A stretch of 64,000 nucleotides of DNA from Verrucomicrobiia bacterium (lineage in GTDB: Bacteria; Verrucomicrobiota; Verrucomicrobiia; Verrucomicrobiales; Akkermansiaceae): positions 1 through 64,000 of the forward strand of contig JAUIJB010000006.1 in NCBI GenBank assembly GCA_030430455.1, given 5' to 3'. Each line of letters starts with the position of its first letter. The stretch's first letter is position 1. Under the pieces are notes generated by a model, which was given only the letters and a program-made list of their open reading frames with translations, made no database searches and was not told the DNA's origin. A program made the position numbers and the translations under genes. Below are positions 1,335-53,489 of this stretch, one piece after another.

Positions 1335-1728
1335 GCGAAGTGGCATTGTGAGCAGGGAGCAGGAGGTCCCGGCCAAAGAGACTCCCGCAGTCGCTTCGGC
1401 CGTGCCTCGATGGCATGAGTCCCGGTTTCCGGCCAGTCGCGAAGCTGAAAACCGCCCCGAAGTGTTCCTCGGCAACGTCGGTATCGCTGCAGGGGGCCAC
1501 TCGCGCCAGAAGTGAGGTTCAAACCAGAGGTGGAGACATCCTCGTGCTGTGGATCAAGCATGTCATTTGCTGACCACCCCTGTGGATCGAGCCGCTACGA
1601 ACCGCCATCTGTCATCGAAGGTGGCGGGATCCAGGATGCGCGTTCCGAGATCGCGGTCCAGTGGGCGTGGGTGGCGGCATTGATGGCGTGACGGGGGATG
1701 CCCTTGTGGGGCGGCGTTGGCCTTGGCC
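1335..1728. other. Intergenic stretch without a recognised gene
   Basis: Between RAYT copy 1 and the glycosidase I see no credible coding frame, tRNA or clear terminator. The open frames on the minus strand here continue antisense into the transposase or glycosidase and have no family likeness. It is not similar to the sequence after the second transposase copy. Confidence 0.5.
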
Positions 1729-5547: not shown

Positions 5548-5560
5548 GGGATGGGATCGT

Positions 5561-7148: not shown

Positions 7149-7187
7149 GGCGAAATCAGTGAAGGGTCTCAGCAGTTCCTGAAAGGG

Positions 7188-7332
7188 AACCGCGAATGGA
7201 CGCGAATGGACGCGAATGCAGAGGGGCATGATGCCAAAGCCCCGTCCGCCGATGAGGACGAGCTTGTTCCCTGCAAGGGGTCCCGGAAGTGAAGTCTTGA
7301 TTGGCGTCCATTTGCGTCCATTCGCGGTTCAT
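7188..7332. repeat. Inverted GCGAATGGAC repeat pair, family C, copy 1
   Basis: AACC followed by three 10-bp units CGCGAATGGA (7188-7220) is mirrored by GCGTCCAT-TTGCGTCCAT-TCGCGGTT at 7302-7332. The two ~25-bp arms are about 80 bases apart and could form a long hairpin in the gap between the importer and lactonase genes. Related units occur at 41408-41478 and 60596-60640. Confidence 0.75.
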
Positions 7333-7351
7333 ATCCAGCGGCCCAACGGCG

Positions 7352-8443
7352 CTAGTGGCCGGTGGTTTCCTCGATGGGTTCGGCGGGCGAGGCCTCCTCG
7401 GCACCGAGGTAGTTGCCGTAGGTGATGATGCCGACGGCGACGAACAGGACGAACAGCGCGAGGTACATGCCGATCACCGTCTTGCGGCGCGCCTGTCTCC
7501 ACTCCCCGACGAGGAAGCCGAACAGGGCGCTGAGCAGGATCAGGATGGTCATGTGGATGGCCCAGCTGGAGAACTTGAACTCACCCATCCGCACGTGGCC
7601 GATTCCGTAGAAGAAGAACTGGCCGTACCACATCAGCCCGGTGGCGAGGGACAGCCCGTAGTTGCGCAGCAGCCCGGGCGAGCCGTCGCGGGTGCGCAGG
7701 AACTCGCCCCAGGTGTTCTGCCGCTGGGCGAGGAAGATGATGTAGACCAGGGTGGTGGTGAAGGCGCCGTTGTTCGAGAACAGGTAGATGACGAGGCCCT
7801 CGAACTGGCCGGCACCGTGCTCGCGGGCGACGTCGGCGACCGGCTGGGCGGCGTCGAGCGAGAAGCTGAACACCGCGGAGAGCACCCCGGCGACGATGCA
7901 GATCGGCAGGCCAACGTGGGCGTTGAACTTCGAGGGCGTGCCCTTCTCGCTCAGTTCGCGTTCCTTGCGGAAGCCGGCGATGCCGGTGAGTACGATGGCG
8001 ACCGCCCCGAGGATGACCCCGGCGATGACGTAGCTGCCGCCGGCCTTGCCCAGCGTCTCCGCCAGCACGCCCTTGTAGATCGGCATGGCGAGGGTGCCGA
8101 GTGCGCAGGAGATGCCGATGGCGATGGCGTAGGTCAGCGAGAAGCCGATGTAGCGGATCGAGACGCCAAAGGCGATGCCGCCGACGCCGTAGAGCACGCC
8201 GAGGAGGTAGGACTTGAGCATCGCGTCGCGCGGCGCCTCGGCGAGCACCGCGCCCAGCTCGGGGACCAGCAGCCAGGCGACGATCCACGGCAGGGTCAGC
8301 CAGCAGAAGAAGGCCTGGGCCAGCCAGTAGGTCTGCCAGCTCCATTGGTGCAGCGCCTTCTGCGGCGTGTAGCAGAGCGCGGCGCTACCCGCACCGATCG
8401 TGTGGAGCAGGGTTCCGAGGAGGGGTGCGGATTCGGGTGGCAT
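7352..8443 (-). CDS. rhaT: RhaT-family L-rhamnose/proton symporter
   Basis: A 363-residue membrane protein with about ten hydrophobic segments. RhaT features include LHTIGAGSAALCYTPQKALHQWSWQTYWL near the N-terminus and YGVGGIAFGVSIRYIG in the middle. The family imports L-rhamnose, and some members import related deoxysugars, across the inner membrane with a proton. It sits between the CoA-transferase gene (45 bp away) and the lactonase gene and points the same way, so it probably feeds this operon. The symbol marks family membership; fucose rather than rhamnose transport is possible. Confidence 0.85.
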   Translation of the reverse strand: MPPESAPLLGTLLHTIGAGSAALCYTPQKALHQWSWQTYWLAQAFFCWLTLPWIVAWLLVPELGAVLAEAPRDAMLKSYLLGVLYGVGGIAFGVSIRYIGFSLTYAIAIGISCALGTLAMPIYKGVLAETLGKAGGSYVIAGVILGAVAIVLTGIAGFRKERELSEKGTPSKFNAHVGLPICIVAGVLSAVFSFSLDAAQPVADVAREHGAGQFEGLVIYLFSNNGAFTTTLVYIIFLAQRQNTWGEFLRTRDGSPGLLRNYGLSLATGLMWYGQFFFYGIGHVRMGEFKFSSWAIHMTILILLSALFGFLVGEWRQARRKTVIGMYLALFVLFVAVGIITYGNYLGAEEASPAEPIEETTGH

Positions 8444-8488
8444 CGCTGGGCAGTCTGGGACCTTCGGGGCGGGCGCTGCAACCGGCGG

Positions 8489-9637
8489 TTATGACTGCAG
8501 CGAGAACTCGCTGTCGATCCGCGCGGTGTGCTGGCCGACCCGCGGGGAACCGGTCGAGCTGCGGTAGGGCTCACCGTCGATGGTGATCGGGCACCGGGTC
8601 GTGCGCAGCGTCGGGCCGTCCTCGCGGGCGACTTCCATGACGAAGTCGAGCGACTCGAAGGCCTCGCTGCGCCACAGCCGGTCCCAGGTCAGCACGTCGG
8701 CGCACCAGTAGTCGGCCGGCTCGAGCAGCCCGAGCCAGTGACTCGTCGGCTGGCTCGCCAGGTGGTCGGCGATGTGGCGCTTGATCTCGTCGCGCTTGGT
8801 GAACCACTCGTCGGCGTCGGTGTAAGCGGCCAGCGCGGGCAGCCCGATGAGCTCGCCGAGCCGGGTGATCGAGCCCATGGCGAGGGCGAGGTGGCCGTCG
8901 GCGGTGGGGTAGATGCCGTAGGGCGCGCCGAGGTAGGCGTGGGCGTTGCTCAGCGCGCTGCGCTCGGGCTGCTTGCCGCCGTCGTTGAGGAATGTGGTGG
9001 TCACCTCGAACTGCAGGTCGAGCACCGACTCGAGCAGGCTGACCTCGACGCGCGCGCCGCAGCCCTTCACTCCTCGCCGCACCAGCGCGGCGAGGATTCC
9101 CTGCACGAGGTGGGCGCTGGCGGTGAGGTCGGCCACGGCGAGGCCGCAGGGCGTCGGCGGCTGGTCGGCGTCGCCACTCAGCCAGGCGAGGCCGGAGAGC
9201 GCCTGGGCGAGCAGGTCCTGGCCAGGCTTGGCGGCCCAGGGTCCCTGGCGCCCGTAGCCGGTGACGGTGGCGTAGACGAGCCGCGGGTTGAGCGCCTCGC
9301 AGCTTTCGAAGTCGAGCCCGATGCGCTCCATCACGCCGGGCCGGAAGTTCTCGATCAGCACGTCCGCCCGGGCGACCAGCTGGCGGACCCGCTCGAGGTC
9401 GTCGGGGTCCTTGAGGTTGGCGGCGTAGCTTTCCTTGTTGCGGTTGATGCTGTGGAAGAGGGTGCTGTCGCCATCGAGCTCGAGGTTCGAGATGTAGAGG
9501 TGGCGGCAGATGTCGCCGCTCTCCGGGCGCTCGATCTTGATGACGCGGGCGCCGAGGTCGGCCAGCCGGGTGGCCGCCCAGGGGCCGGCGAGGAATTGCG
9601 AGAAGTCGAGGACGAGGAGGCCTTCAAGGGGTTTCAT
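8489..9637 (-). CDS. CaiB/BaiF family CoA-transferase
   Basis: A class III CoA-transferase of 382 residues. It has [19 protein letters not shown] at the N-terminus, [17 protein letters not shown] around 93-109 and the likely catalytic aspartate D170 in [10 protein letters not shown]. Such enzymes move CoA between carboxylic acids through an acyl-aspartyl intermediate. Its presence in a sugar-acid operon suggests that one acid is processed as a CoA thioester. Two starts are possible: ATG 9637, chosen for its family-like N-terminus, and GTG 9664, which overlaps the upstream stop by 4 bp and may be translationally coupled. The substrate is unknown. Confidence 0.85.
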
Positions 9638-9660
9638 GGATGGGAAATGGGCCGGGTGGA

Positions 9661-10821
9661 TCACGCGGACGGCAGCGACCCGAGGTAGAGCCGGTCGAGT
9701 TCGCGCAGGGTTTCTTTGTCGCCGGCCTCGCGCCGGAGGGCGCGGTGGAGCACCGGGCCGGCGGCCTCCTGGAAGCCGGTGTATCCGCAGTAGCGGGGCC
9801 GCAGCCAGGCGAGGTCGTGTGCCGGCAGGGTGTCGCGGAAGTAGCCGTGGGTGAGGATGTTGTTGGCCTCGTCGAGCCAGGCCGAACGGTGCCCGGGCTG
9901 GCCGCCGGCGGGCGTCGTGAGGGTCCGCTGGATCCTGCCGGATGCGGTGAAGGCGAGGTAATCGAGCAGTTCAGGTCCCGGTGGCCGCCGCCCCGACAGC
10001 GCCAGGCCGGTGCCGCCGAGGGTGGTGCGCAGGGGCACCCCCTTGAACGACGGCGGCAGGCCGAAGCGCAGCCGCTCCCCGGCGTAGCCGTCGCGGGCGT
10101 AGTTCGAGTAGCCGTAGGCCAGCGGGCAGTAGGCGAGGCGCTCGTTGGCGGTCGACGACAGCAGGTCGTGGGAGCCGATCGGGTTGGTCTCCCAGACCCG
10201 CGGGTCGCAGGCCTCGAGCAGCGTGCGCAGGTCGTCGAGCGCGGCCTGCATCACCTCGCCCGAGGCGATCCGCTCCGGGCCGGCGAAGGGCGCCTCGCCG
10301 TGCGCCACGCAGAGCGTGTAGAAGTTCATCAGGCAGTAGATCGGCGCACCCGGGAGGTGGACGTGGCCGGCCCTGGCGAGCTCGAGCACCGCCTCCCAGC
10401 TCGTCGGCACCTCGAGGCCGTGGCGGGCGACCAGGTCCTCGCGCCAGAAGGCGACCGGGGTGGCGGCGTCGATCGCCAGCGCCCACTGGTGGCCGTCCCA
10501 GTGGTAGCTGTCGTGCGAGCAGCCGACCTGGTGCCCGCGCTGGTCGGCGAGGAACTCGGCCGGCAGGTGCTCGTCGAGCGGCAGCAGCAAACGGTGCCTC
10601 GCGGCGTCGCCGACGAAGGGATGGTCGATCACCAGCAGGTCGTACTCCGCGGCGAGCTTCTCGACGGGAAACTCCTCGAAATCCTTCAGCGAGCGCTTGT
10701 CCCAGTGGACGCGGACCTCCGGGTGGAGTTCCTCGAAGCGCTGGGCCGAGGCGAGCAAGGGCACGGAACCCCGGCTGTGGTCCCAGGTCATGCCGCGGAG
10801 GTGGATCGTGTCGGTGCTCAT
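9661..10821 (-). CDS. Extracellular-solute-binding-like protein lacking a signal peptide
   Basis: A 386-residue protein with the fold signature of sugar ABC transporter binding proteins. Examples are [17 protein letters not shown] near residue 25, [27 protein letters not shown] in two parts, and a Trp/Tyr-rich C-terminal half. The N-terminus [15 protein letters not shown] enters the first strand directly, and there is no hydrophobic leader or lipobox. No permease or ATPase gene is near. It overlaps the oxidoreductase stop by 4 bp (ATGA) and ends at the CoA-transferase start, so it is made with cytoplasmic enzymes. A cytosolic ligand-binding or enzyme role is possible. The frame upstream of 10821 runs antisense-like over the oxidoreductase and was not taken. 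Confidence 0.75.
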
Positions 10822-11912
10822 GGTTCGAAGTCGATCGGGGTGGCGCCGCCGGCGCTGGATTCGTAGGCCGCCTCGACCACGGCCATGGTGTTGAAGGCGT
10901 CCTCGACCCGCGTCGGCAGCTCGTCGGTCTCGCCGCCGGCGAAGCGCTGCAGGCTGGCCATGGTGCCGACGAAGGCGTGGGGGTACCAGCTGCCGCTGAA
11001 ATCCACCGGCTGCCAGGGCCCGGGCCGGCCGTCCGCGTCGAGCCGGCAGATCTCCAGTGCGTCGGGCTCGCCCTCCGGGTAGTTCATCAGCAGGCCGAGC
11101 CGGGCCACGATCGCGCCCCCGGTGCCCTCCCACTTGACGTAGCTCTCCTGGTGGTCGAGGCCGAAGTCGTGGCCGTGGTTGGTGGTGATGTTGGCCCGCA
11201 CGAGGTCGCCGTAGTCGAGCGCGATGTTGGTCCGGGTCGAGGCCAGGTTGGCCGTGCGCGGGTGCTTCACCGTCCTGGCGTAAACGCCGGCGGGCTCGCC
11301 GAGGAACGAGCGGACCAGGTCGACGTAGTGGATGCTGTGGTAGAGGATCTCGACCCGCGGGATGCCCTCGAGGAAGGTCCACAGGTGCCACGGCATGTAG
11401 ACCGTGACGCGGACCTCGACGTCGTGGAGCTCGCCGATCGCGCCGGCGTCGATGAGCCTCCGCGCGGCGAGGATGTACGGCGCAAAGCGTAGTTGGAAGT
11501 TGACCGCCGCGCGGAGCCGCTTGCGGCGGCAGGTCGCCAGCAGTCCGCGGGCCTGTCCGAGGTCCTCGCCGAAGGGCTTCTGGATCAGCACCGGAGCCCC
11601 GTCGGGCAGCTGGTCGAGGATCCTGGCGATGGCCGAGGCCGGCACCGCGAGGTCGAACACCGCCTCGTCCGGGGCCTCGCCGACCGCCGCTGCCAGGCTG
11701 TCGAAGACCCGCGGGACGTCGAACTCCGCGGCGAGCTCGCGCGCCTTGGCGGGATCAATGTCGAACAGCCCGGCTACCGGGAAGCCGGCCAGCCGGTAGG
11801 CCGGCAGGTGGCCGTCCCGCACGATCCCGCCCGCACCGATCACCACGATCGGGCGCGGCTCGCGGGGCAGCGGCGGGCAGGGTTCGGGACGCGTCTGGGG
11901 ACTCGATGCCAT
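10818..11912 (-). CDS. Gfo/Idh/MocA family oxidoreductase
   Basis: A 364-residue NAD(P)-dependent sugar or polyol dehydrogenase family member. The N-terminal Rossmann motif is [18 protein letters not shown] (about 23-40). The usual EKP triplet appears as QKP in [12 protein letters not shown]-terminal alpha/beta domain follows. It is the first gene of the long minus-strand run and may oxidise the free deoxysugar or a derived acid. An AT-rich palindrome lies directly before its ATG. Its 3' end overlaps the next gene by ATGA. The exact substrate is not readable. Confidence 0.85.
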
Positions 11913-11947
11913 TTTGTTTGTAAAAAATGTTTTTATTCACAAAAACA
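11913..11947. promoter_or_regulatory. AT-rich imperfect palindrome between divergent genes (candidate IclR operator)
   Basis: The 47-bp gap between the oxidoreductase ATG and the IclR ATG is strikingly AT-rich against a GC-rich background. It carries an imperfect inverted repeat with arms of the form TTTGTnAAnAA. Its place between the regulator and its putative operon suggests an operator with overlapping promoters. This is inference from position and symmetry. Confidence 0.5.
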
Positions 11948-11959
11948 GGCAAGCTCCAA

Positions 11960-12727
11960 ATGACGAAGTCGCCCAACTACGCGGTCCCGGCGCTCGACCG
12001 CGGCCTCGACATCCTCGAGGCGCTCGCCGAGCTGGCGGTCCCGCAGTCGCTCAGCGACCTGGCGGCGCAGCTCGACCGCAGCGCGAGCTCGTTGTTCCGG
12101 GTGCTCAACGGCCTCGAGCGACGCCACTACGTGACCCGCGACCCGCTGTCCGGGAAATACGCCCTGTCGCTCCGGCTCTTCGCCCTGGCCCACACCCACT
12201 CGCCGGTCGAGGCGCTGCTGCGGGCGGCGCGGATGCCGATGCAGGCCCTGGCCACCGGGCTCGACGAGTCCTGCCACCTGAGCGTGCTCGAGCGCGGCCG
12301 GGTGCTGGTCGTCGCCCAGCAGCACAGCCCGTCGCCGGTGCGGGTGTCGATCGAGGTCGGCGGCGAGTTCGACCCATTGCTCGCCGCCTCCGGGCGCCTG
12401 CTGCTGGCCCAGCTCGACGACGACCTGCGGGGGGCGGTGCTGGACCAGTCGCCGGCCTGGCAGGCGGCCGGGCCGCGCCGGCGCAGGGAGTGGCAGGCGG
12501 CCATCGGCGCGATCCGCCGCAGCGGGTGGTCGCAGGGTCGCGACGACACGGTCGAGGGTTTGGAAGACCTCGCGACTCTGGTAGGAGGAAGGGGATCGCC
12601 GCTGCAGGCGGCGCTCGCGGTGACCCGTTTCCACGGCTCGCGGGCGCCGGCGAAGGCGACGAAGGTGCGCCGGTTGCTCAAGGAGGCCGCCGCCGCAATC
12701 ACCGAAAACCTAGGCATGAACCCATGA
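11960..12727 (+). CDS. IclR family transcriptional regulator
   Basis: A 255-residue regulator. A winged helix-turn-helix lies at about 8-70 ([12 protein letters not shown], then [20 protein letters not shown]). An IclR effector-binding domain follows, with [15 protein letters not shown] near 135-150. IclR proteins usually bind small acids or aromatic compounds and control the adjacent catabolic genes. The start was set at ATG 11960 rather than ATG 11927, because the upstream codons lie inside the AT-rich palindrome and add a Lys/Phe-rich tail outside the domain. The stop overlaps the MaoC start by ATGA, giving a two-gene unit divergent from the oxidoreductase operon. Confidence 0.88.
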
Positions 12728-37311: not shown

Positions 37312-38658
37312 TCACTCCGGAGCCCGCTCCCGTTCCCGCCGATACGCCTCGGCGAGCAGAACGACCGGGTGAACCACGCGGGGCTGGCGGCCGGCCTCGC
37401 GCAGGCCGTTGCCGATCTGCAGGTGACAGCCGGGATTGGCGGTGGCGATCACCTCGGCCCCACTGTCGAGCAGATGACCGACCTTGCGTTGCTGCAGGCG
37501 GGTCGCCGTCTCGGGCTGGGTCAGGTTGTAGATCCCGGCACTGCCGCAGCAGGTGGTCGCATCGGCGCTCTCGACCAACTCGACACCGGGCAGGGCGCCA
37601 AGCAGCTCGCGCGGTTGCCGGCTGACTCCCTGGCCGTGGCACAGGTGACAGGACTCGTGATAGGTGACCCGCCGCACCGCGGCCGCGGGGTCGAGCGGCG
37701 CCCGGAAACCGATCTCGACCAGCCACTCGTGGATGTCGCGCAGGCGTCGCGACCAGGCGGCCGCCCGCTCGCGATACTGCGGCTCCTCGGCAAGCAGCCG
37801 GTCGTAGTGGCGCAGGTGCGAGCCGCATCCGCCGGCATTGCTGATGATGGCATCGTAGCTCTCCGGGTCGATGGCATCGAGTTGGCGCCGGGCCAGCCGC
37901 TTGGCGGCCTCGATCTCGCCATTGTGGGCGTGCAGCGAGCCGCAGCAGTCCTGGGTCCGCGGTGTGACCACCTCGCAGCCGTTCTCGGCCAGCACCTCGG
38001 CGGTGGCTTGGTTGACGTCCGAAAACACCAGGTCCTGCACGCATCCGGTGAGCAGCAGGACGCGGTGGCGTCGCCCGCCCCGCGCCGGGGTGATCTCCTC
38101 GATCCGCTCGTCCGAAAAGCGCGCCTGGATCTCCGGCGTCAGCGGCTCGGCCTCGCGCAGCGGCCGGGGTAGCAGGCGGACCAGGCCGAGGCGGCGGCTG
38201 GCCGACTGCATCCCGCTCGCCTGCCACAAACGCAGCATCCGCCCGGCGGCACGCAGCAGGCGCGGGCGGAGGAACAGCCCGTGGATCGTCACCGCCCGCA
38301 CGGCGCGCCGCCACGGCGTGTCGAGCAGCCCGCGGTCCTCGACCTCGGCGCGGGCCGACTCGAGCAGGTGGGCGTAGTCGACCCCGGCCGGACAGGCGCT
38401 GGTGCAGGCGAGGCAACCGAGGCAGTAGCTCATCTCCCCGGCGAACTCGCGGCTGGCCTCGAGCTCACCGTCGGCGATGCCGCGCATCAGCGCGATGCGC
38501 CCGCGCGGCGAGTTCCGCTCGCGACCGGTCTCGTTGTAGGTCGGGCAGTCCGGCAGGCACATCCCGCAGTGCATGCATTGCTGCAGCACCGAGTAGTCGA
38601 GCCCGGCGAGGCGACCGCCGGGCTGCGTGGGCTTCGACGATGGCGTGGCCGCACTCAC
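37312..38658 (-). CDS. glcF: Glycolate oxidase iron-sulfur subunit GlcF
   Basis: A 448-residue Fe-S and CCG-domain protein. Two 4Fe-4S motifs are visible: CMHCGMCLPDC (C28, C31, C34, C38) and CLGCLACTSAC (C79, C82, C85, C89). Two CCG cysteine-rich domains follow (for example TQDCCGSLHAHNGE and ATTCCGSAGIYN). It takes electrons from GlcD during glycolate oxidation to glyoxylate at the inner membrane face. The start is GTG 38658, which overlaps the GlcD stop by 4 bp; in-frame sequence further upstream is antisense-like over GlcD. No separate GlcE is present, so this is the two-gene GlcD-GlcF form. Confidence 0.9.
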   Translation of the reverse strand: MSAATPSSKPTQPGGRLAGLDYSVLQQCMHCGMCLPDCPTYNETGRERNSPRGRIALMRGIADGELEASREFAGEMSYCLGCLACTSACPAGVDYAHLLESARAEVEDRGLLDTPWRRAVRAVTIHGLFLRPRLLRAAGRMLRLWQASGMQSASRRLGLVRLLPRPLREAEPLTPEIQARFSDERIEEITPARGGRRHRVLLLTGCVQDLVFSDVNQATAEVLAENGCEVVTPRTQDCCGSLHAHNGEIEAAKRLARRQLDAIDPESYDAIISNAGGCGSHLRHYDRLLAEEPQYRERAAAWSRRLRDIHEWLVEIGFRAPLDPAAAVRRVTYHESCHLCHGQGVSRQPRELLGALPGVELVESADATTCCGSAGIYNLTQPETATRLQQRKVGHLLDSGAEVIATANPGCHLQIGNGLREAGRQPRVVHPVVLLAEAYRRERERAPE

Positions 38659-40031
38659 GATTCGACGGGCTCGATGATCTTGCCCGGGTTGAGCAGGCCG
38701 TCGGGATCGAGCGTGCGCTTGATCATCCCCAGGAGCCGGTAGCTGGCCTCGTCGAATTGCTCGCGCAGCGCCTGCTTCTTCGCCAGGCCGACGCCGTGCT
38801 CGCCGGTGATCGTGCCGCCGAGTTTCATCGTCTGCGCAAAGATTTCCTCCAGCGCGAGCTCGACGCGGTGCATCTCGGCGGCGTTGCGCTCGTCGGTGAG
38901 GATGGTCGGGTGCAGGTTGCCGTCGCCGAAGTGCCCGAAGGTCGCGATCTCGAGCTGGTGGCGCGCGGCGACCTCCTCGATGAAGCGGATCATCCCGGCC
39001 AGCTCGCTGCGCGGCACGGTGACGTCCTCGAGGATGGTGGTGGGGCGAATCCGCGCGAGGGCTGAAAAGGCACTGCGCCGCGCGGTGGCGAGGCGGGCGG
39101 CCTCCTCGGCGTCGGCCGCCCGCGCGACGGTGGTCGCGCCGTGCTCGCGGGCCAGCTGCTCGATGCGTGCGGCCTCGTCGGCGACCGCCGCCGGGTGGCC
39201 GTCGGTCTCGACCAGCAGCAGCGCCTCGGCATCGCCGGGCAGGCCGACCTTGGCGAACTCCTCGACGCAGCGGATCGTCCGCCGGTCGAGGAACTCCAGC
39301 GTGCAGGGGATGATCGGCGAGGCGATGATCGCCGAGACCGTGGCGGCGGCGGTGTCCATCGCCTCGAAGGTGGCCAGCAGGGTCTGGCGCGCCGCCGGCT
39401 TGGGCAGCAGCTTCAGCAGCACCCGGGTGACGATCCCCAGCGTGCCCTCGCTGCCGATGAACAGGTCGCGCAGGTTGTAGCCGGCGACGTCCTTGACGCA
39501 CTTGTTGCCGAGCCAGCAGGTTGAGCCGTCGGCCAGCACCACCTCCATCCCCATGACGTAGTCACGAGTCACGCCGTACTTCAGGCCACGCAGTCCGCCC
39601 GAGTTCTCGGCGACGTTGCCGCCGATGGTGCTGATCTTCATCGACCCGGGGTCCGGCGGGTAGAACAGGCCGGCCTCGTCGGCGGCCGCGAAGATGTCCT
39701 GGGTGATCACCCCGGCCTCGACCTCCATGGTCAGGTTGCGGCGGTCGATCGCGAGAATCCGCTTCATGCGCTGGAGGCAGAGCACGACGCCCCCGGCGAC
39801 CGGCACGCTGCCGCCGCTCAGGCCGGTGCCGCTGCCGCGCGAGACGACCGGCACCCGCCGCTCGCGGCACAACTTCACGATCCCGGCGACCTCGCCGGTG
39901 TCGGCGGGAAACACGACCGCCGCCGGCCGCTGCTTCAGCGCGGCGGCGCCGTCGAAGCCGTATGGCACGACGTCCTCGGGCTCGGTGAGGACGTGTTCGG
40001 GCCCGAGGAGGGAGCGAAGCTCTTCAATCAT
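38655..40031 (-). CDS. glcD: FAD-linked glycolate (2-hydroxyacid) oxidase subunit GlcD
   Basis: A 458-residue FAD-binding PCMH protein. It has PVVSRGSGTGLSGG in the FAD-binding region (about 61-74), GGNVAENSGGLRGLKYGVT (~137-155), and a C-terminal FAD-oxidase domain with FGHFGDGNLHP and ITGEHGVGLAKK. It oxidises glycolate, or a related 2-hydroxyacid such as lactate, with GlcF as electron partner. It overlaps GlcF by GTGA and the transporter stop by 8 bp, so the three are tightly coupled. Position downstream of a RuBisCO-like protein and kinase suggests that glycolate is made by that pathway. Confidence 0.9.
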   Translation of the reverse strand: MIEELRSLLGPEHVLTEPEDVVPYGFDGAAALKQRPAAVVFPADTGEVAGIVKLCRERRVPVVSRGSGTGLSGGSVPVAGGVVLCLQRMKRILAIDRRNLTMEVEAGVITQDIFAAADEAGLFYPPDPGSMKISTIGGNVAENSGGLRGLKYGVTRDYVMGMEVVLADGSTCWLGNKCVKDVAGYNLRDLFIGSEGTLGIVTRVLLKLLPKPAARQTLLATFEAMDTAAATVSAIIASPIIPCTLEFLDRRTIRCVEEFAKVGLPGDAEALLLVETDGHPAAVADEAARIEQLAREHGATTVARAADAEEAARLATARRSAFSALARIRPTTILEDVTVPRSELAGMIRFIEEVAARHQLEIATFGHFGDGNLHPTILTDERNAAEMHRVELALEEIFAQTMKLGGTITGEHGVGLAKKQALREQFDEASYRLLGMIKRTLDPDGLLNPGKIIEPVES

Positions 40032-41331
40032 CGTCGCGGGCGGGGTGACGTTTCCAGTAGTTGGCGAGGATCGATCCCGAGATGTTCATCCACGGGCTGA
40101 AGATGGCGGCGGCGAGGCCGAGGGTGGCGAGCTTGCCGAGGTCGCTGGCGATTCCGAAGGCCATGCCGCCGTTCTGCATGCCGACCTCCATCGCCACCGT
40201 GCGGGCGTCGTTGCGCTTGAGGCCCATCGCCCGGCTGAGCCAGTAACCCAGCAGGTAGCCGATCGAGTTGTGCAGCACGGCGGCGACGCACAGCAGCAGG
40301 CCGATGGCGAGCAGCGCGTCGCGCCCGGAGGCCGTGGCGATGGCGGTGAAGTAGATGATGCCGAACATCGAGAACACCGGCATGAAGCCGTCGAGCCCGG
40401 GCAGCACCCGGGTGAGCTGGTGGTAGGCCAGCCCGACCAGCACGGCGGCGAGCAGGAAGCCCGCGACGGTGACCGTGTTGAGCAGCGCGGGCGCGGGGAT
40501 CGACGCCTCGATGGTGGACCAGCCGATGGTGGAAATGGTGACGAGCCAGACCAAGGCCACGACGGCAAGGATGCGGATGATCAGCCGGCCACCTCGAGCC
40601 GCGCGCTTCAGGTAGTCGTGGACCAGCGCGGCGCCGATCGGAGCGACGACGATCTTGAAGATCGACATCATCGCCGTGACGAAGTCGAAGCGGCTGGTTT
40701 CCCCACTGACCGGCGTGCCGAGCTGGGTCAGCCAGAACGGAGTGACGAAGGGGGCGAGCGCGGTGGCGCAGGCGGTGAGGGTGATCGACAGCGGCAGGTT
40801 GAGCCGTCCCATGTGGGCCATGACGTTCGAGGCCAGGCCGCTGGAGCAGGAACCGATCAGCACCAGCCCGGCACCGATCTCCGGCGGGAAGCCGAGCATC
40901 CGGGCCAGCCCGAATCCGACCAGTGGCATGATCGAGAATTGGCAGATCAGGCCGACGATGACGCCGTGCGGCATCTTGGCGACCCCGGCGAAGTCGCGGA
41001 TGCTCATCTGCGTGCCCATGCCGAACATCACCAGCTGGATGATGATCAGCACGGCCCAGGGGTTCTTGAAGTTAATCGCCAGCGACTCGGTGATCTGCGG
41101 GCTGAGGAAGGCCTCGGGATAGAGCAGCGGGCAGACGACGGCGAAGACGATCCACGCGGTGAACCGGTAGCCGCGCAGGGCCGGGATGGCTCCGAGCCCG
41201 ACCGGCAGCGTCGTCACCGCGACCGCCCCGGCGGCGCGGGCGAGCCCGTCCTGGCCCAGGGCCAGGCCGGTGAGGGCCACGACGAGAGCCAGGCCGAAGA
41301 TGCCGAGGCAGGCTTTGCGGATCCGGGTCAT
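40024..41331 (-). CDS. Bile acid:sodium symporter (BASS)-like transporter
   Basis: A 435-residue integral membrane protein with about ten hydrophobic segments and an extra N-terminal helix. It shows the BASS features FGMGTQMSIRDFAGV and IGSCSSGLASNVMAHMG, with a polar kink and an inverted-repeat-like second half (MEVGMQNGGMAFGIAS). It is longer than usual BASS proteins (about 300-330) because of the N-terminal region and a mid insertion. Relatives carry organic acids with sodium. It overlaps GlcD by 8 bp, so it likely moves a substrate or product (apionate-like acid, glycolate or lactate) of this operon; which one is unknown. Confidence 0.75.
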   Translation of the reverse strand: MTRIRKACLGIFGLALVVALTGLALGQDGLARAAGAVAVTTLPVGLGAIPALRGYRFTAWIVFAVVCPLLYPEAFLSPQITESLAINFKNPWAVLIIIQLVMFGMGTQMSIRDFAGVAKMPHGVIVGLICQFSIMPLVGFGLARMLGFPPEIGAGLVLIGSCSSGLASNVMAHMGRLNLPLSITLTACATALAPFVTPFWLTQLGTPVSGETSRFDFVTAMMSIFKIVVAPIGAALVHDYLKRAARGGRLIIRILAVVALVWLVTISTIGWSTIEASIPAPALLNTVTVAGFLLAAVLVGLAYHQLTRVLPGLDGFMPVFSMFGIIYFTAIATASGRDALLAIGLLLCVAAVLHNSIGYLLGYWLSRAMGLKRNDARTVAMEVGMQNGGMAFGIASDLGKLATLGLAAAIFSPWMNISGSILANYWKRHPARDDD

Positions 41332-41407
41332 TGCGTTCCTTTCGGTGGGTTTCCGGTGGCGGTGCGATCGAAGGAGCAAGAGGAGCTTGCCGGGTCGTTT
41401 GGGGGAA

Positions 41408-41478
41408 AACCACGGTTGAACACGGATGAACGCAGATGCTCAAATCCATCTGCGATCATCGGTGTCCATCTGCGGTTC
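41408..41478. repeat. Inverted CGCAGATG repeat pair, family C, copy 2
   Basis: AACCACGGTTGAACACGG and GAACGCAGATG are mirrored imperfectly by CATCTGCGATCATCGGTG and TCCATCTGCGGTT. This could form a ~30-bp imperfect hairpin. It sits in the 186-bp gap inside the operon, between the racemase-fold gene and the transporter. Confidence 0.6.
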
Positions 41479-41517
41479 ATCATCATAGGGTGGCATGAGC
41501 CGTTCGCCCGGGTGCAC

Positions 41518-42177
41518 TCAGTCCGCCATCACCTTGGCCAGGTGGGCGATGGCGATCGGCGGGCTGGCCAGGATCGGGACGGTCTTCTCCGCCTCGTCGA
41601 GCGTGTCGACCACCCGCGCCATCGAGGCCTGGGCGAGCAGGACGACCTCGACCTCGCCGACCAGCTCGCGCAGCGCCGCGGCCACCAGCGAGTCGTGCTT
41701 CTCCGCATCGCCGGCCATCAGCGCCTCGAAGGCGCCCTCGCAGAGCCGGGCGGTGAGCTGGATCTCGCGGCCGGCCGCCGCCGCGCGCCGCCGCACCAGG
41801 TCGCTGGTCGGGTCGAGGGTCGTCGGCAGGGTGGCGATCACGCCGATGCGGGTGCCGCCGGCGACCGCCTCGTCGACCATCGGCCGGTCGACCCGCAGCA
41901 CCGGGATGCCGACGAAGGGTTCCGAAGCCTCGACGGCCGGGCCGATCGACGAGCAGGTGACCAGCACCTGGTCGGCGCCGCCGGCCTCGGCCGACTCGAT
42001 GTAGCTGCCGACGCGGCGGGTCAGGTCGGCGGTCAATTCACCGCGCTCGCCGATCTGCCGCACCAGGCTGTCGTCGACGATGTTGAAGGTGGCGACGCCG
42101 GGGAGCTGCTCGCTGCAGAGTTGCTGGAAGACCGGGACGAGGGTGGCGGAGGTGTGGACGAGGGCGAGGGTTTTCAT
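41518..42177 (-). CDS. Asp/Glu-racemase superfamily protein lacking the second catalytic cysteine
   Basis: A 219-residue protein with the aspartate/glutamate/hydantoin racemase fold. The first cysteine site is intact, C75 in LVTCSSIGP. The second half, where racemases carry another cysteine, reads LLAQASMARV with Ser at 185. A two-base racemization is therefore unlikely. A one-base isomerase, lyase or decarboxylase-like activity is possible, as known for single-cysteine members such as arylmalonate decarboxylase. It is spaced 14 bp from the kinase gene in the same operon, which suggests action on the same acid-sugar intermediates. The start ATG 42177 gives the usual N-terminus; further upstream is antisense-like. 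Confidence 0.8.
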   Translation of the reverse strand: MKTLALVHTSATLVPVFQQLCSEQLPGVATFNIVDDSLVRQIGERGELTADLTRRVGSYIESAEAGGADQVLVTCSSIGPAVEASEPFVGIPVLRVDRPMVDEAVAGGTRIGVIATLPTTLDPTSDLVRRRAAAAGREIQLTARLCEGAFEALMAGDAEKHDSLVAAALRELVGEVEVVLLAQASMARVVDTLDEAEKTVPILASPPIAIAHLAKVMAD

Positions 42178-42191
42178 GAAATACGATGGGT

Positions 42192-43562
42192 TTAGGAGTT
42201 CGGGCATCCCCGGAGCAGGCGGGGGAACAGGTCGGCGGCGCCGACCTGGCCGCCCTTGAAGACGATCTCGCGGCCGGCCGCCGGCGAGTCCGGCGCATGG
42301 ATGCGGCACAGGGGCGCGCCGGGCGTGAAGGTGGCGGTCATCTCGACCGCCTCGATTCCGAGGGCCCGGGCGGCGTGGCTCGACGAGTCGCCGCCGGCGA
42401 TCATCAGGCGCCGGATGTCCGATCCAGCCAGTACTTCGCGTCCGATCCGGCCCAGCGCCCGTCCGAGCAGCTCGCCGGTGATGGCCGCGGCGCCGCTCTT
42501 GCCCATCCCGCCGAGGTGCTCACCGACGAGGTCCTGTCGCGGGTCGCCGGGGCCGCGGCTGGTATGGACGACGACGGAGGACCCCTGGGCGAGCAACTCG
42601 CCGGCGCGGGCCATGGCTTTGGCCACCTCGCCCGGGTCCTCGCGGAGCAGGGCGACGGGATCGAGCGCCACCTCGGCGAAGCCCGCGGCGAGGGCGTGCT
42701 CGATTTGCGCTCCAGTGACCGGCGAGCAGCTGCCGGAAAGGACCAGCACCGGGCCATCCGCGGGAGTGGCGGGCGGGGGCGTTGGATCACCGGACCCGAG
42801 CTGCCCCGCGAGCGCCATTTCGACGCCGGACGAGCCGATGATGAACAGCGGGGACTGGCGCTCGGTGAGATCCTCGAGCACGCCGCCGATGGCCTCGAGA
42901 TCGGACTCGTGCAGTCCGTCGACCAGCACCGCCCTGGCGCCTTCGTTCAAGGCGCAGTCGAGCAGCTTGTGGATTTCGGCCGGCGGCTGCTGCAGCTGGA
43001 GGATATCGAGCAGCGCGCAGGGCAGCTCGGTCTGCCGGGCGAGGTGAAGCCGCAGGTCGCTCTCGTCGGCCGGCGTGACCGGGTGCTGGTGCATTGCCGG
43101 GTGGCGGTCGAGGCGGTGGATGGCGCCCTCGCTGCCGATGCCCATGCGGGCGAAGAGGTTGCCGAAGACGCAATGGCGGCCGAGGGCCGGCGCGGCGACA
43201 ACGATCGGAACCAGCGGGGTGCCGAAGGCGGCGATGCCGGCCTCGAGGGCGCAGCCGATGCTGCCGATTCGCGGCGAGGAGTCGAAGGTCGAGCAGACCT
43301 TGTAGTGAACCTGCCGGGGATTGAGCGAGCGGAGCGCGGCAAAGGCAGAGTCGAGGACCGGCTGCATCCGCTGCGGCGGCAGCGAGCGGGTCAGCCCGGC
43401 GACGCCGATGGCGTCGAACTCGCCGAATCGCTCAAGTGTCTCAGGTGTCGGCGGGTCGAGGAACAACACGGCGCGACCACCCGCACGCGCCAGCCACTCG
43501 AGGGCATCGGTCGACCCGGTGAAGTCATCACCGTAGAACGCGAAGGGAAGGGAGGTGGCCAC
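42192..43562 (-). CDS. oiaK: DUF1537 four-carbon acid sugar kinase family protein, probable 3-oxo-isoapionate kinase
   Basis: A 456-residue member of the OtnK/DUF1537 family. The N-terminal domain begins FAFYGDDFTGSTDALEW (residues ~7-23) with the acid-sugar-binding aspartates. The C-terminal nucleotide-binding domain has VLSGSCSPVTGAQIEHA and IAGGDSSSHAARALGI. The family phosphorylates D-erythronate, D-threonate, L-threonate or 3-oxo-isoapionate. The pairing with a RuBisCO-like protein 15 bp upstream is the arrangement of the D-apionate pathway, in which OiaK makes 3-oxo-isoapionate 4-phosphate. No OtnC or DenD aldolase or dehydrogenase partner is present. The family is certain; the substrate is inferred from context. 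Confidence 0.85.
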   Translation of the reverse strand: MATSLPFAFYGDDFTGSTDALEWLARAGGRAVLFLDPPTPETLERFGEFDAIGVAGLTRSLPPQRMQPVLDSAFAALRSLNPRQVHYKVCSTFDSSPRIGSIGCALEAGIAAFGTPLVPIVVAAPALGRHCVFGNLFARMGIGSEGAIHRLDRHPAMHQHPVTPADESDLRLHLARQTELPCALLDILQLQQPPAEIHKLLDCALNEGARAVLVDGLHESDLEAIGGVLEDLTERQSPLFIIGSSGVEMALAGQLGSGDPTPPPATPADGPVLVLSGSCSPVTGAQIEHALAAGFAEVALDPVALLREDPGEVAKAMARAGELLAQGSSVVVHTSRGPGDPRQDLVGEHLGGMGKSGAAAITGELLGRALGRIGREVLAGSDIRRLMIAGGDSSSHAARALGIEAVEMTATFTPGAPLCRIHAPDSPAAGREIVFKGGQVGAADLFPRLLRGCPNS

Positions 43563-43577
43563 GGGCGGGGTCGGGAT

Positions 43578-44813
43578 TCAGGCGAACTTTTCCACCGAGG
43601 CGAGAAGCTCCGGGTAGCGGGCGGTTGCAGCGTCGAAGTCGAGCCCCTCGACGGCGGCCTGCCACCAGGTCTGCAGCGAGCGGACCCCGGCGGCCGGGCC
43701 CTCCGGGTGGGCCATGATGCCGCCGCCGGCCATGTAGAGCAGGTCGACCGTGCCGGTGCGGCGGAAGGTCTCGGGCGCCTGACCGCCCCACTGGCCGGAG
43801 GAAACCACCGGCAGCAGCGGCCGCCCGAGCGGCTCGGCGGCGAGGCAGGACCCGATCGAGCGCACCACCGAGTCGTCGTCCTCCCAGAACTTGTTGGCGA
43901 TGCCGTTGACGTGGAGCTGGTCGACGCCGGCGAGGCGCCAGAGCTTCTGGTAGGCGGGAAACTCGATGCCGAGCAGCGGGTGGCGGTTGAGCATCCCCCA
44001 GCCGTTGCGATGGCCGTGGATCGCGAGCTCGCCGCGGTCGCAGATCTTCTTGGCTCCGGCCAGTCCCACGCTGTTCAGGCTGATCATCGCGCAGCACCCG
44101 CCGCTGGCGACCACCTTGTCGTAGTGGCGCTGCATCGCGTCGAGCTCGTCGCTGACGTTGAAGGCGTACATCACCCGCTTGCCGCTGCGCTGGGCGTGCT
44201 CGTCGAGGACCTGCATCACCGCGTCGACCCGCTCGTCGAAGGGCGAGTGCGGCGGGTTGGCCATCAGCTCGTCGTCCTTGATGAAGTCGATCCCGGCCGC
44301 GGCGAGGGTCCCGGCCAGCTCGGCGGTTTGGGCGGGGGACATGCCGATGCTCGGCTTCATGATCGTGCCGATCAAGGGGCGCCCGTGCACGCCGGTGAGC
44401 TCGCGGCAGCCGTCGATGCCGAAGGCCGGCCCGCGAAAGGCCGCCGCGAAGTCGTCCGGGAAATCGAGGTCGAGCAGCTTGAGGCCGGAGAATTGGGCCA
44501 GCTCGTAGAGGTTGCCCTGCACGGTCGAGACCAGCGTGGGCAGGTTGTGGCCGAAGTTCTCCGTCGACCAGGAAACGCTGACCCGAGCCCGTTGCAGCGA
44601 ACCCTCGCCGCGGTGTCCGGGCAGCGAGGGTGAGTCGACCGTCTCCAGACCGGTGATCTCCTCGACCCGCGCGGCGAAGCGCTGCTTCAGCTCGGCGGTT
44701 TCGCCGGGCACGGCGACGAAGGTTCCCGACGACTGCTCGCCAGCGAGCGAGGCCGCCGCGTCGGCGGGGTCACGCGGGGTCTCGACGAGGTAGTGGGCGA
44801 CGACGCGGTCCAT
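43578..44813 (-). CDS. RuBisCO-like protein, probable 3-oxo-isoapionate-4-phosphate transcarboxylase/hydrolase or decarboxylase (OiaT/OiaX type)
   Basis: A 411-residue RuBisCO large-subunit homologue. The active-site lysine is K153 in GTIMKPSIG. The metal-binding loop is DFIKDDE, with K179 (carbamylation position), D181 and E182. Loop 6 is altered to HGHRNGWG (H266-H268). No small subunit or phosphoribulokinase is near, so it is not a CO2-fixing RuBisCO. RuBisCO-like proteins beside DUF1537 kinases act on 3-oxo-isoapionate 4-phosphate. One type yields 3-phosphoglycerate and glycolate, the other erythrulose phosphate and CO2. Glycolate oxidase in this operon favours the first (inference). The start ATG 44813 is the first gene of the operon; the in-frame ATG 44906 would add a non-family tail. 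Confidence 0.85.
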   Translation of the reverse strand: MDRVVAHYLVETPRDPADAAASLAGEQSSGTFVAVPGETAELKQRFAARVEEITGLETVDSPSLPGHRGEGSLQRARVSVSWSTENFGHNLPTLVSTVQGNLYELAQFSGLKLLDLDFPDDFAAAFRGPAFGIDGCRELTGVHGRPLIGTIMKPSIGMSPAQTAELAGTLAAAGIDFIKDDELMANPPHSPFDERVDAVMQVLDEHAQRSGKRVMYAFNVSDELDAMQRHYDKVVASGGCCAMISLNSVGLAGAKKICDRGELAIHGHRNGWGMLNRHPLLGIEFPAYQKLWRLAGVDQLHVNGIANKFWEDDDSVVRSIGSCLAAEPLGRPLLPVVSSGQWGGQAPETFRRTGTVDLLYMAGGGIMAHPEGPAAGVRSLQTWWQAAVEGLDFDAATARYPELLASVEKFA

Positions 44814-46429: not shown

Positions 46430-47332
46430 TCACGGAGCCCCCAGCGCATCGAGGATGGCCGCGACTCGCACCCGCTCGGGTGCCTTGAAGCGGTGGAAGG
46501 GCTCGGCCATGAAGTCGTTGCAGACGCCGAGGATCGACAGCGCGCTCTTGGTCGCCTTGATATGGCGCGAGGCGTACTTGCCGATCTCGTAGATCGCCTG
46601 GAGCGCCTCGATGCGGGCGACCAGCGGGGCGAGGGCTTCGTCGTCGCCGCCGGTGGTGGCCTTCCAGGTATCGACGAAGAGTTCGGGAAAAAGGTTGGCA
46701 CCGCCGTTCACGCCGCCGTCGCCACCCAAGCCCACAGCCGTCGGCAGCAGGTGCTCGGGGCCCATGAAGACGCTCCAGTCCGGGCGTTGTTCCTTCAGGG
46801 CGACCAGCCTGGCGAAGTAGTCGAGGTCGCCGCTGCTGTCCTTGAGGCCGGCGATGCCCCCGAGGTCACTGAGCTCGCGCAGCGTCTCCGGCTCGAACCA
46901 GACCTTGGTCAGCGCCGGCATGTTGTAGAGCATCAACGGCAGCGGCAGCTCCGGCACGAGGTGGCGGATGTACTCCTTCAGCTCCGTCTGGCCGGCCGGG
47001 AAATAGTACGGCGTGGCAAGAACCAGCATCGTGGCACCGGCATCCGCGGCGAATCTTGCCAGCGCCACCGACTCCTCGAAGGCGGTGTCGGTGATGCCGA
47101 CGAGGACCGGCACGCGATCGTCGACCTGTCGGCAGACGCGCTCGATGAGTTCGCGGCGCAGGCGGTAGCTGAGGCTCGGGGCCTCGCCGGTGGTGCCGAG
47201 GAGGAACAGGCCGCTGACGCCGCCGTCGACGATGCGGTCGACAAGCCGTTCGAGGCCGGGGTGGTCGAGTTCGTCACGCGCCGCGAGCGGCGTGATCATC
47301 GGGGGCACGATGCCCTGGAGGCGCTGGATCAT
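46430..47332 (-). CDS. DHDPS/NanA-family aldolase (candidate 2-keto-3-deoxy-acid aldolase)
   Basis: A 300-residue class I pyruvate aldolase fold. It has the GTTGE motif (46-50), Y136 in LYNMPA and the Schiff-base lysine K164 in GLKDSSGD. The family includes dihydrodipicolinate synthase, sialic acid lyase and aldolases for 2-keto-3-deoxy sugar acids, including that from L-rhamnonate. It is coupled by ATGA to a sugar symporter and lies opposite a rhamnosidase, so a 2-keto-3-deoxy-L-rhamnonate or galactonate aldolase is likelier than lysine synthesis (inference). The start is ATG 47332. The further open frame is antisense-like over the symporter. Confidence 0.85.
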
Positions 47333-48822
47333 GCGGTCTTTCCTGCTTTCAGTTTCGCGACCATCATGCCGACGAGCAGGATGGTGAGGGTGCCGACGAC
47401 CACGGTCATCAGGCCGTCCAGCGGCGTGCGCAGGGACTCGGGCATCCAGTCGGCGTCGGCGAAGGACATCCAGGCGATGACCAGCACGCCGATCGTGACC
47501 CCGGTGACGCCCGCGGCGCGGTCGGCATGGCGGGCGATCCGGCCGAGCAGGAACAGGCCGAGCATGCCGCCGGCGAAGATCCCGGAGAGCGTCCACCAGA
47601 CGTCGAGGATGTTGCCGTCGTCGTAGGTCAGGGCCACCGCCACCGCCGTGCCGATGAAGCCCCAGAACAAGGTGGCGAGGCGCAGCACGCGCATCTCGCG
47701 GCGGCCGGGATCGGCGGCGACCTGGCGGTGGAAGATGTCCTTCAGGGTGATCGTGGCCGAGCTGTTCAGGCTGGTGTCGATCGTGCTCATCGCCGCGGCG
47801 AACAGCGCGGCGACCATCAGCCCACCGACGCCCGGAGGCAGGTGGTTGGCCATGAAGTGCGGCAGCGCGTTGTCGCCGGCGGGACGATCGGTCGCCGCCT
47901 TGAGGGCCTCCAGCTCGGCCATTTCCGCGAGGTGGATGTCGGCGTGGTAGAACCCCCACAGCAGCGTGCCGATCAGGAAGAACAGGGCGGAGACCGGGAT
48001 GTAGACGACCGCGCCCAGCCACAGCGAGCGGCGCGCGTCGGCCAGCGAGCGCGCGGTGTGGTAGCGCTGGATGTAGTTCTGGTCGATGCCGAAGTTGGTG
48101 AGGTTGATGAAGATCCCGAACAGCAGGATGACCCAGAAGGTCGGCGTGGTGAGGTCGAGGGCAAAGCTGCCCAGCGAGAACTTGTCGGCCTCGGCGGCGC
48201 GCGAGAACAGCTCGCCGCCGCCCGGCTCGCCGAGCAACAGGACGGCGAGGACGATGACGGCGCCGACGCTGAGCACGAGGGCCTGGACGACGTCGGTCCA
48301 GATCACCGCCTCGATCCCGCCGACCAGGGTGTAGGCGGTGACGAGCACGCCGGTGGCGATGATGATGCTGCGGATGTCCCAGCCGGTCACCGCGTGCAGG
48401 CCGATCGAGACGCCGACCATGATGGTGCCGCTGCGGCTGACCTGGGTGAGCAGGTAGCAGATGACCGTGTAGACCCTCGCCCAGCGACCGAAGCGCTCCT
48501 CGAGGTGGGTGTAGGCCGAGATGAAGCCGGACTCGCGGTAGAAGGGCACGAACCAGCGCGACGCGACCCAGGCGCCGAAGGGAATGGTCAGGCTGAAGAC
48601 GAAGAAGCTCCAGTTCGACGAGAAGGCCTTGCCGGGGTTGCCGATGAAGGTGTTGCTCGACAGGTAGGTGCCGAACAGCGACAGGCCGATCGCCCAGCCG
48701 GGCAGGCGTCCGCCGGCGGCGGTGAACTCGGCGGTGGTCTGGCTGCGCCGGGCAAACCAGAAGCCGACCGCCACCACGGCGGCGACGTAAACGATCAGGA
48801 TGGTCAGGTCGAGTGACTGCAT
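47329..48822 (-). CDS. SSS family sodium:solute symporter
   Basis: A 497-residue membrane protein with about 13 hydrophobic segments. SSS features are [19 protein letters not shown] near residue 50, [13 protein letters not shown] (~150) and [16 protein letters not shown] (~330). It imports a sugar, sugar acid or similar solute with sodium. The 4-bp overlap with the aldolase start suggests they handle the same substrate. It is divergent from the GH78 gene across 180 bp. The real N-terminus is [13 protein letters not shown]; in-frame codons further upstream are antisense to the rhamnosidase and were excluded. Confidence 0.88.
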
Positions 48823-49002
48823 GGCGGGATCATTCGCCGGCTTCGGGCCGGGTGATGAACTGGATTTCCATTCCTGTGACCATTGCAGGGATTCCCGCGC
48901 CTGGCGGTCAAGGAGCAATGGTGTTCCCGGCCGGCGATGTCGCAGGTGGCTGCAAGTTTCGCATCGTCGCCCCGCGTTGGCTTGCCTATCGATGGAAAAC
49001 CC

Positions 49003-52334: not shown

Positions 52335-53489
52335 ATGAAAGCGAGTGCTGAACGAGATGCGGAGGCGGTGAAGGTGGCGGGGTTGCCGACGGGACTTTAT
52401 CCGGGCGGATTCAGGCGCGGGAAGGGGCCGGGGAGACGGCGGATTCTGGGGCCGGAGTGGTGCTCGAATTGCTACCACGTCATGAGCCGGACGGTCGGCG
52501 GTGAGATGCTCTTCGGGGTGGCGGAGAAGGAGGCATTCTGCCGGATCTTGCGACGCCTGGAGCGCTTCGCCGGGGTGGAGGTTCTCACCCACGCCGTGAT
52601 GGGGAATCACTTTCACCTCCTGGTGCGGGTGCCGGAGCGGGAGAAGTTCTTGCGGCGTTTTGACGGAGAGGCGGGGGGAAAGCGGCTGTTGGAGCACCTG
52701 AAGCTGCTCTACTCGAAGGGCTACCTGAGTGCGCTTCGGGCGGAACTGGCGGACCTCCGCGAGAAGAAGATGACGGCGGCGGTGGAGGAGCTGCTGGACC
52801 GCTACCGCAAGCGCCTCTGCAACCTGGAGGTGTTCGTGAAGGAGCTTAAGGAGCGCTTCTCCCGATGGTTCAACAAGCACCACGGGCGGCGCGGAACTCT
52901 GTGGATGGAGCGCTACAAGTGCGTGCTCGTCGAGAACGGCGAGGCGCTGCGGACGATGGCAGCCTACATCGACCTCAACCCAGTGCGGGCCGGCCTTTGC
53001 GAAGATCCAAAGGATTACCGCTGGTGCGGCTATGCCGAGGCGGTGGCGGGCAGCAAGCGTGCGCGACGGGGCCTGTGCCGGGTGCTCGATCGGCCGCTGG
53101 ACTCGTGGAGCGAGCGGCCCGCGAAGGCGAGCCTGACGGCGGCGGAATGGTATCGCTGCTGGCTGTTCGAGGATGGCATGGAAGTGCCCGAGGCCGCCGG
53201 GCAGAAGACGGGGCTGAAGGGCCGCAAAGGACGCAAGGGGATCCGTGCGGATACGGTGAGGAAGGTGCGAGAAGGCGGCGGCAAGTTGTCGCGGGCGGAG
53301 CTGTTGCGTTGCCGGGTGAGGTATTTCAGTGATGGTGTTGCGATCGGCAGTCGCAGCTTCATCGAGGGGGTCTTTCGGGAAAGGCGCGATTGCTTCGGCG
53401 AGAAGCGCAAAGACGGCGCGCGGCGGATCCGTGAGGCCGAGGCGAGTCTCTTTTCATTAAGGGAGCTGCGAGTGCAGGCGGTTGAGTAA
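52335..53489 (+). CDS. REP-associated tyrosine transposase (RAYT), copy 2
   Basis: A 384-residue near-duplicate of the gene at 153, in the same orientation 52 kb away. The HUH histidines (H92, H94 in NHFHLL) and catalytic Y211 (AYIDLNPVRAGL) are intact. It differs mainly in a shortened stretch near residue 285 (GQKTGLKGRKGRKG). The similarity of the two copies starts about 60 bp before the ATG and ends at the stop, so the unit that moved, or was kept by conversion, is the gene plus its short leader. Both copies look functional. Two RAYTs so close are unusual, as these genes are mostly single per genome. Confidence 0.9.
   Translation: MKASAERDAEAVKVAGLPTGLYPGGFRRGKGPGRRRILGPEWCSNCYHVMSRTVGGEMLFGVAEKEAFCRILRRLERFAGVEVLTHAVMGNHFHLLVRVPEREKFLRRFDGEAGGKRLLEHLKLLYSKGYLSALRAELADLREKKMTAAVEELLDRYRKRLCNLEVFVKELKERFSRWFNKHHGRRGTLWMERYKCVLVENGEALRTMAAYIDLNPVRAGLCEDPKDYRWCGYAEAVAGSKRARRGLCRVLDRPLDSWSERPAKASLTAAEWYRCWLFEDGMEVPEAAGQKTGLKGRKGRKGIRADTVRKVREGGGKLSRAELLRCRVRYFSDGVAIGSRSFIEGVFRERRDCFGEKRKDGARRIREAEASLFSLRELRVQAVE

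Follow-up and report, generated by a model that had tools for sequence, protein, structure and literature searches.

A cassette of four genes, encoding a RuBisCO-like protein (RLP), a DUF1537 kinase, an Asp/Glu-racemase-fold protein (RAC), and a BASS-family transporter, is widespread and conserved in many plant-matter-degrading bacteria. On balance, this cassette probably constitutes a catabolic pathway for L-aceric acid, for which we infer the substrate, the RAC reaction, the products, and the role of an adjoining GlcD-GlcF pair. L-Aceric acid (3-C-carboxy-5-deoxy-L-xylose) is one of the sugar acids that occur in the pectin rhamnogalacturonan-II (RG-II). The proposal is based on the conservation of the cassette, the clade formed by its RLPs, the mutual exclusion of RAC and ApnO, the tie to GH127 enzymes, and the active-site signature of the RLP.

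The analysed stretch of 64,000 nucleotides (hereafter the window) corresponds to contig C52 of a draft genome (4.22 Mb, 150 contigs, 91% complete, GC 69%). Six genes on its minus strand, between positions 37312 and 44813, form one operon. The gene coordinates and firm Pfam assignments (RuBisCO_large, SBD_N/NBD_C (DUF1537), Asp_Glu_race, SBF, FAD_binding_4/FAD-oxidase_C, and CCG/Fer4) bear out the order RLP-kinase-RAC-BASS-GlcD-GlcF given by an earlier, sequence-only reading, as well as its spacing, with gaps of 15, 14, and 186 bp followed by overlaps of 8 and 4 bp. The RLP gene (43578 to 44813; 411 aa, RuBisCO_large 202 bits) contains the KDDE motif that had been reported for it. It is followed by an OiaK-like kinase of the DUF1537 (four-carbon acid sugar kinase) family with a GTG start (42192 to 43562), by RAC (41518 to 42177; 219 aa), and, after the 186-bp gap (41332 to 41517), by the BASS-family (SBF) transporter (40024 to 41331; 435 aa, PF01758 101 bits). 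A GlcD-like FAD subunit of a 2-hydroxyacid dehydrogenase (38655 to 40031) overlaps BASS by 8 bp, and a GlcF-like iron-sulfur subunit with a GTG start and CCG and Fer4 domains (37312 to 38658) overlaps GlcD by 4 bp. Within the RAC-BASS gap, a repeat-like stretch (delimited as 41410 to 41438 and, more broadly, as 41410 to 41490) includes the self-complementary words CGCAGATG / CATCTGCG and has the look of a dispersed repeat; no second copy was found elsewhere in the 64-kb window.

Across bacterial and archaeal genomes, 80 loci were found to encode an RLP 62 to 77% identical to that of the window. The order RLP-kinase-RAC, mostly followed by BASS, is kept in most of these independently retrieved loci, and the core of the operon is thus not a product of chance. 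RAC is found together with the RLP in 77 of 90 locus rows. Among 251 genomes of the Sphingobacteriaceae, the 34 that encode the RLP are precisely those that encode RAC, which marks RAC as dedicated to the RLP pathway. GlcD and GlcF are present in none of the 80 loci, and the pair was rejected as part of the cassette core. The sequence-only reading had counted RAC and the transporter, along with the glycolate oxidase, as extras joined to a described system; RAC and BASS are instead part of the conserved core, and GlcD-GlcF is the only part that is not conserved. In the taxonomic order of the source (289 genomes), a close RLP is present in only one other genome, where it is arranged RLP-kinase-RAC-BASS without GlcD.

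In line with the affiliation first read from its sequence, the RLP falls on the OiaT/OiaX side of its family and not with MtnW. It scores 485 bits against NF042437 (OiaX), compared with 135 and 167 bits against the MtnW models TIGR03332 (cut-off 514) and NF007095 (cut-off 409), neither of which is reached. In a tree, a check that the sequence-only reading had suggested, 46 RAC-type RLPs form one clade (support 100/99), with both OiaX and ApnO-type RLPs outside it, the OiaT type being set here by gene context (RLPs of ApnO loci without LerI/DerI) and not by the characterised Xanthobacter sequence. Lys175, Lys201, Asp203, Glu204, His327, Lys334, and Ser379 (RuBisCO numbering) are conserved in every RAC-type and ApnO-type RLP examined, and in the alignment RAC-clade and Apn-type sequences are separated by residues 96, 99, 231, and 299.

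NF042437 is the best-scoring NCBIfam model for the window RLP, as would be expected of a simple OiaX-type decarboxylase that leaves a ketose-1-phosphate to be split by an aldolase. However, the score is far below the equivalog cut-off of 700 and is equalled by an OiaT-context RLP (472 bits). In addition, all five OiaX-annotated decarboxylases examined have Gln at position 327 and, at 379, either Gly or Cys, whereas the RAC clade, including the window RLP, has His327 and Ser379. LerI/DerI homologues are absent near RAC cassettes, and a recurrent aldolase is absent from the neighbour clusters. Simple decarboxylation was lowered on the model score, residues 327 and 379, and the missing LerI/DerI partners, and we regard it as very unlikely. 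Chemistry of the OiaT type, HOOC-C(OH)(R)-CO-CH2OP -> 3-phosphoglycerate + R-COOH, is, with the OiaT type assigned by gene context, a fairly secure prediction for the RLP.

The kinase is nearest to OiaK, as had been proposed; NF042436 is its best-scoring family (388 bits, compared with 183 for OtnK), although the score is below the curated equivalog cut-off of 700. The OiaT-type signature of the RLP, together with this affiliation of the kinase, makes cleavage to 3-phosphoglycerate and a small hydroxy acid without loss of CO2 plausible.

RAC is a member of the Asp/Glu racemase superfamily (PF01177, 71.4 bits; gathering cut-off 31), which includes aspartate, glutamate, and hydantoin racemases and arylmalonate decarboxylase. 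No match to RAC was found by sequence among solved structures. Its AlphaFold2 model (pLDDT 95) superimposes on aspartate racemase 1jfl with a Z score of 22.0 over 207 residues at 2.4 A. A two-base racemase has two catalytic cysteines, of which RAC keeps one: Cys75 is the only invariant cysteine in alignments of 32 and of 77 sequences, and the region of the second cysteine, its place inferred from the motif, reads LAQASM. A one-base active site of this kind is better suited to a 1,2-proton shift than to racemisation with two bases, and we propose that RAC may be a ketol isomerase. To our knowledge, the Asp/Glu racemase superfamily has no known member with aldose-ketose isomerase activity.

Clustering of neighbouring genes identified GH127 as the commonest further partner of the cassette. 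Of 76 loci, 28 have a GH127 gene no more than 10 kb away (binomial estimate of about 1e-46 for a single-copy gene, treating the loci as unrelated). In 18 loci, spread over several phyla, the GH127 gene immediately precedes the RLP in the same orientation, with a gap of 3 to 151 bp. Two cassette-linked GH127 proteins score 790 and 846 bits against PDB 5mqo, which we take to be the aceric-acid hydrolase BT1003, versus 396 and 379 bits against the beta-L-arabinofuranosidase 4qjy. The GH127 of the source genome, on contig C56, is also closer to 5mqo (692 bits) than to 4qjy (368 bits). Enzymes of the 5mqo type are present in all 48 RAC genomes searched, at 602 to 1147 bits (the GH127s counted are 45 to 73% identical to the search query), and other GH127 paralogues reach at most 513 bits; the source-genome protein scored 679.6 bits in the same search. 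All 34 Sphingobacteriaceae genomes with the RLP are among the 82 of 251 with a 5mqo-type GH127 (Fisher p 1e-19, ignoring relatedness), and the enzyme is found without the cassette in 48 of 217 genomes of this family. Since other RG-II enzymes, including apiosidase, occur in many cassette genomes, the tie to GH127 could partly reflect general RG-II use. BT1003 is described as an aceric acid hydrolase in two papers, one of them on RG-II breakdown (PMC5698469, PMC10850190). We found no downstream pathway of aceric acid breakdown in the open-access papers searched; subscription papers may describe one.

The genes of the cassette can be arranged into a putative route. A BT1003-type GH127 would free aceric acid, and BASS, which we propose imports this branched sugar acid, would take it up with Na+. 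The best NCBIfam model for BASS is PanS (ketopantoate/pantoate), at 187 bits and under the cut-off of 400. RAC, with its one catalytic cysteine, would then move the carbonyl from C1 to C2, giving HOOC-C(OH)(CHOH-CH3)-CO-CH2OH, the methyl analogue of 3-oxo-isoapionate in which CHOH-CH3 replaces CH2OH. The kinase would phosphorylate the CH2OH adjoining the ketone, and the RLP, by OiaT-like transcarboxylation/hydrolysis, would release 3-phosphoglycerate and L-lactate with the configuration retained. We also considered 2,3-dihydroxybutanoate as the cleavage product, which was ruled out because the OiaT mechanism gives lactate. Such a route needs no oxidoreductase or lactonase, which would explain the missing ApsD, ApnL, and ApnO and matches a four-gene cassette that includes neither a dehydrogenase nor a lactonase. 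More tentatively, and with rather less confidence than we attach to aceric acid as the substrate, we propose that this is a redox-free, three-enzyme route not yet described, with the single-cysteine RAC as an aldose-ketose isomerase and the RLP producing 3-phosphoglycerate and L-lactate.

The sequence-only reading had proposed a branch from apionate to glycolate, after the OiaK and OiaT branch of D-apiose catabolism (PMC6302742). Of this, the OiaT/OiaK-type chemistry is supported and apionate as the substrate is not. In that scheme, 3-oxo-isoapionate would be made elsewhere, and the kinase and RLP, acting as OiaK and OiaT, would convert it to 3-phosphoglycerate and glycolate, the latter being oxidised by GlcD-GlcF, with RAC and BASS as accessories. 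The OiaT-type signature, the kinase affiliation, and the translational coupling of GlcD-GlcF to BASS are all consistent with it. Apiose is also an RG-II sugar, and an apiosidase-family enzyme (PF13204) is present in 40 of 49 RAC genomes. However, no apiosidase was detected in the source genome. It is one of nine RAC genomes, a complete Verrucomicrobia genome among them, in which the family is missing; all nine have a 5mqo-type GH127. ApnO, ApnL, and ApsD are all lacking within the cassette locus, and a targeted search for ApnO and ApnL elsewhere in the source genome (91% complete), where they had been thought worth seeking, returned no match for either. The absence of ApnL alone is weak evidence because the ApnL search matched nothing in the controls either. 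Of 48 RAC genomes, 47 lack ApnO, while both RAC-less controls have it, and RAC and ApnO never share a locus (77 loci with RAC, 7 with ApnO). The one RAC genome with ApnO (Phycisphaerae G047, loci L097 and L098) has the gene in two adjoining, overlapping pieces, and it is possibly broken. Apionate was lowered as the substrate on these absences from the source genome and on the distribution of ApnO. The apionate scheme also leaves the obligatory RAC unexplained, and GlcD-GlcF is in no related locus and scores below the glycolate-oxidase cut-offs. Overall, we consider it unlikely. On proteobacterial plasmids, RLP-kinase pairs are accompanied by a Gfo/Idh/MocA dehydrogenase, a D-apionate lactonase, and an ApnO-like protein, and the Rhizobium OiaX locus also has TIM-like and RpiB-like isomerases.

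The GlcD-GlcF pair, which is found with the cassette only in the source genome among those examined, had been read as removing the glycolate released by the RLP. This is not supported: GlcD scores 519 bits against TIGR00387 (cut-off 568), GlcF scores 258 bits against PRK11274 (cut-off 333), GlcE is absent from the operon, and related cassettes do not include the pair. One weaker GlcD paralogue is encoded elsewhere in the source genome. The coupling of GlcD-GlcF to BASS suggests a role on the released hydroxy acid, glycolate or lactate, and the pair could equally be a dehydrogenase of lactate or another 2-hydroxyacid. In the aceric acid route, it may oxidise the released 2-hydroxy acid as a last step, in the source genome only. 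The usual substrates of GlcD-type enzymes are glycolate or D-lactate; since L-lactate is the product expected from aceric acid, GlcD-GlcF fits glycolate at least as well.

The surroundings of the operon constitute a plant cell-wall set (GH2, GH29, GH78, GH95, GH106, and pectate lyase). General pectin enzymes as neighbours (GH2, GH28, GH78, GH95, and GH106) are also what would be expected if the cassette served another branched or 2-keto pectin sugar acid, an unlisted RG-II acid or an imported intermediate, by the same RLP chemistry with RAC catalysing an epimerase or isomerase step. The occurrence of RLP-kinase pairs in further contexts, such as one in Azospirillum with a neighbouring VOC protein and TRAP transporter, indicates that the module has more than one substrate and is consistent with such a reading. 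We nevertheless consider it rather unlikely, because the partner found closest and most often is specifically a 5mqo-type GH127, and because the chemistry of the kinase and RLP can accommodate aceric acid with no extra enzyme. The Azospirillum pair is on a plasmid (L146, 7444 to 10564), with no ApnO or RAC annotated nearby, and is perhaps a further substrate variant of the module. On a Croceibacterium plasmid (L084, 7175 to 11528), a beta-L-arabinofuranosidase-domain protein overlaps the start of the RLP and is followed by the kinase and a GDSL esterase; this locus includes neither RAC nor BASS, and a sialidase-family gene is nearby.

Other genes of the window were also noted. A second catabolic block (4747 to 12727) encodes an FAH hydrolase, an SDR, an L-fuconolactonase-like amidohydrolase, a RhaT transporter, a CoA-transferase III, a Gfo/Idh/MocA protein, and an IclR regulator. 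In locus L023, genes related to those for the CoA-transferase, amidohydrolase, RhaT, and Gfo directly adjoin the RLP cassette, and parts of the block are near the cassette in L015, L018, L022, L024, L026, and L033. Adjoining the operon, a DHDPS-family lyase overlaps a sodium:solute symporter (46430 to 48867), possibly a route for another RG-II acid, for example KDO or DHA. A DHDPS relative follows BASS in L056, and relatives of both genes are farther downstream in L055. A 928-aa open reading frame with coding-like composition (1717 to 4503) has no Pfam match, and two IS200-like (Y1) transposase-family genes (153 to 1334 and 52335 to 53489) flank much of the carbohydrate region.

Few pectins are as complex as RG-II. 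If the proposed pathway is correct, it would add one more sugar acid to the substrates of RuBisCO-like proteins and a new reaction to the racemase superfamily. It would also offer an explanation for a gene set, at present annotated only as "ribulose-bisphosphate carboxylase large subunit family protein" plus racemase, in many Bacteroidota, Verrucomicrobiota, and Planctomycetota.

Among known systems, the cassette resembles the OiaK and OiaT branch of D-apiose catabolism, reportedly the work of Carter et al. (2018, Nat Chem Biol), in having an RLP beside a DUF1537 kinase, OiaT-type catalytic residues, and a predicted type of substrate, a phosphorylated beta-keto, tertiary alpha-hydroxy acid that would release 3-phosphoglycerate. 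In contrast to that branch, it has an obligatory RAC and BASS in place of ApsD, ApnL, and ApnO, and its RLPs constitute a separate clade tied to 5mqo-type GH127. OiaX (NF042437) is on the same RLP branch (about 49% identity between the window RLP and Rhizobium OiaX), but the window RLP is under the equivalog cut-off, keeps His327 and Ser379, and is without LerI/DerI partners. RAC shares the fold (Z 22 to 1jfl) and the TCSS cysteine of the Asp/Glu racemase superfamily, and differs in its single invariant cysteine and the LAQASM at the second site. The GlcD-like and GlcF-like subunits are those of glycolate oxidase GlcDEF, whereas the pair in the window is under the curated cut-offs and lacks an adjoining GlcE. 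Compared with the cassette, BT1003 (GH127, Bacteroides thetaiotaomicron) only frees the sugar acid; relatives from its family are present in all cassette genomes tested and in the source genome.
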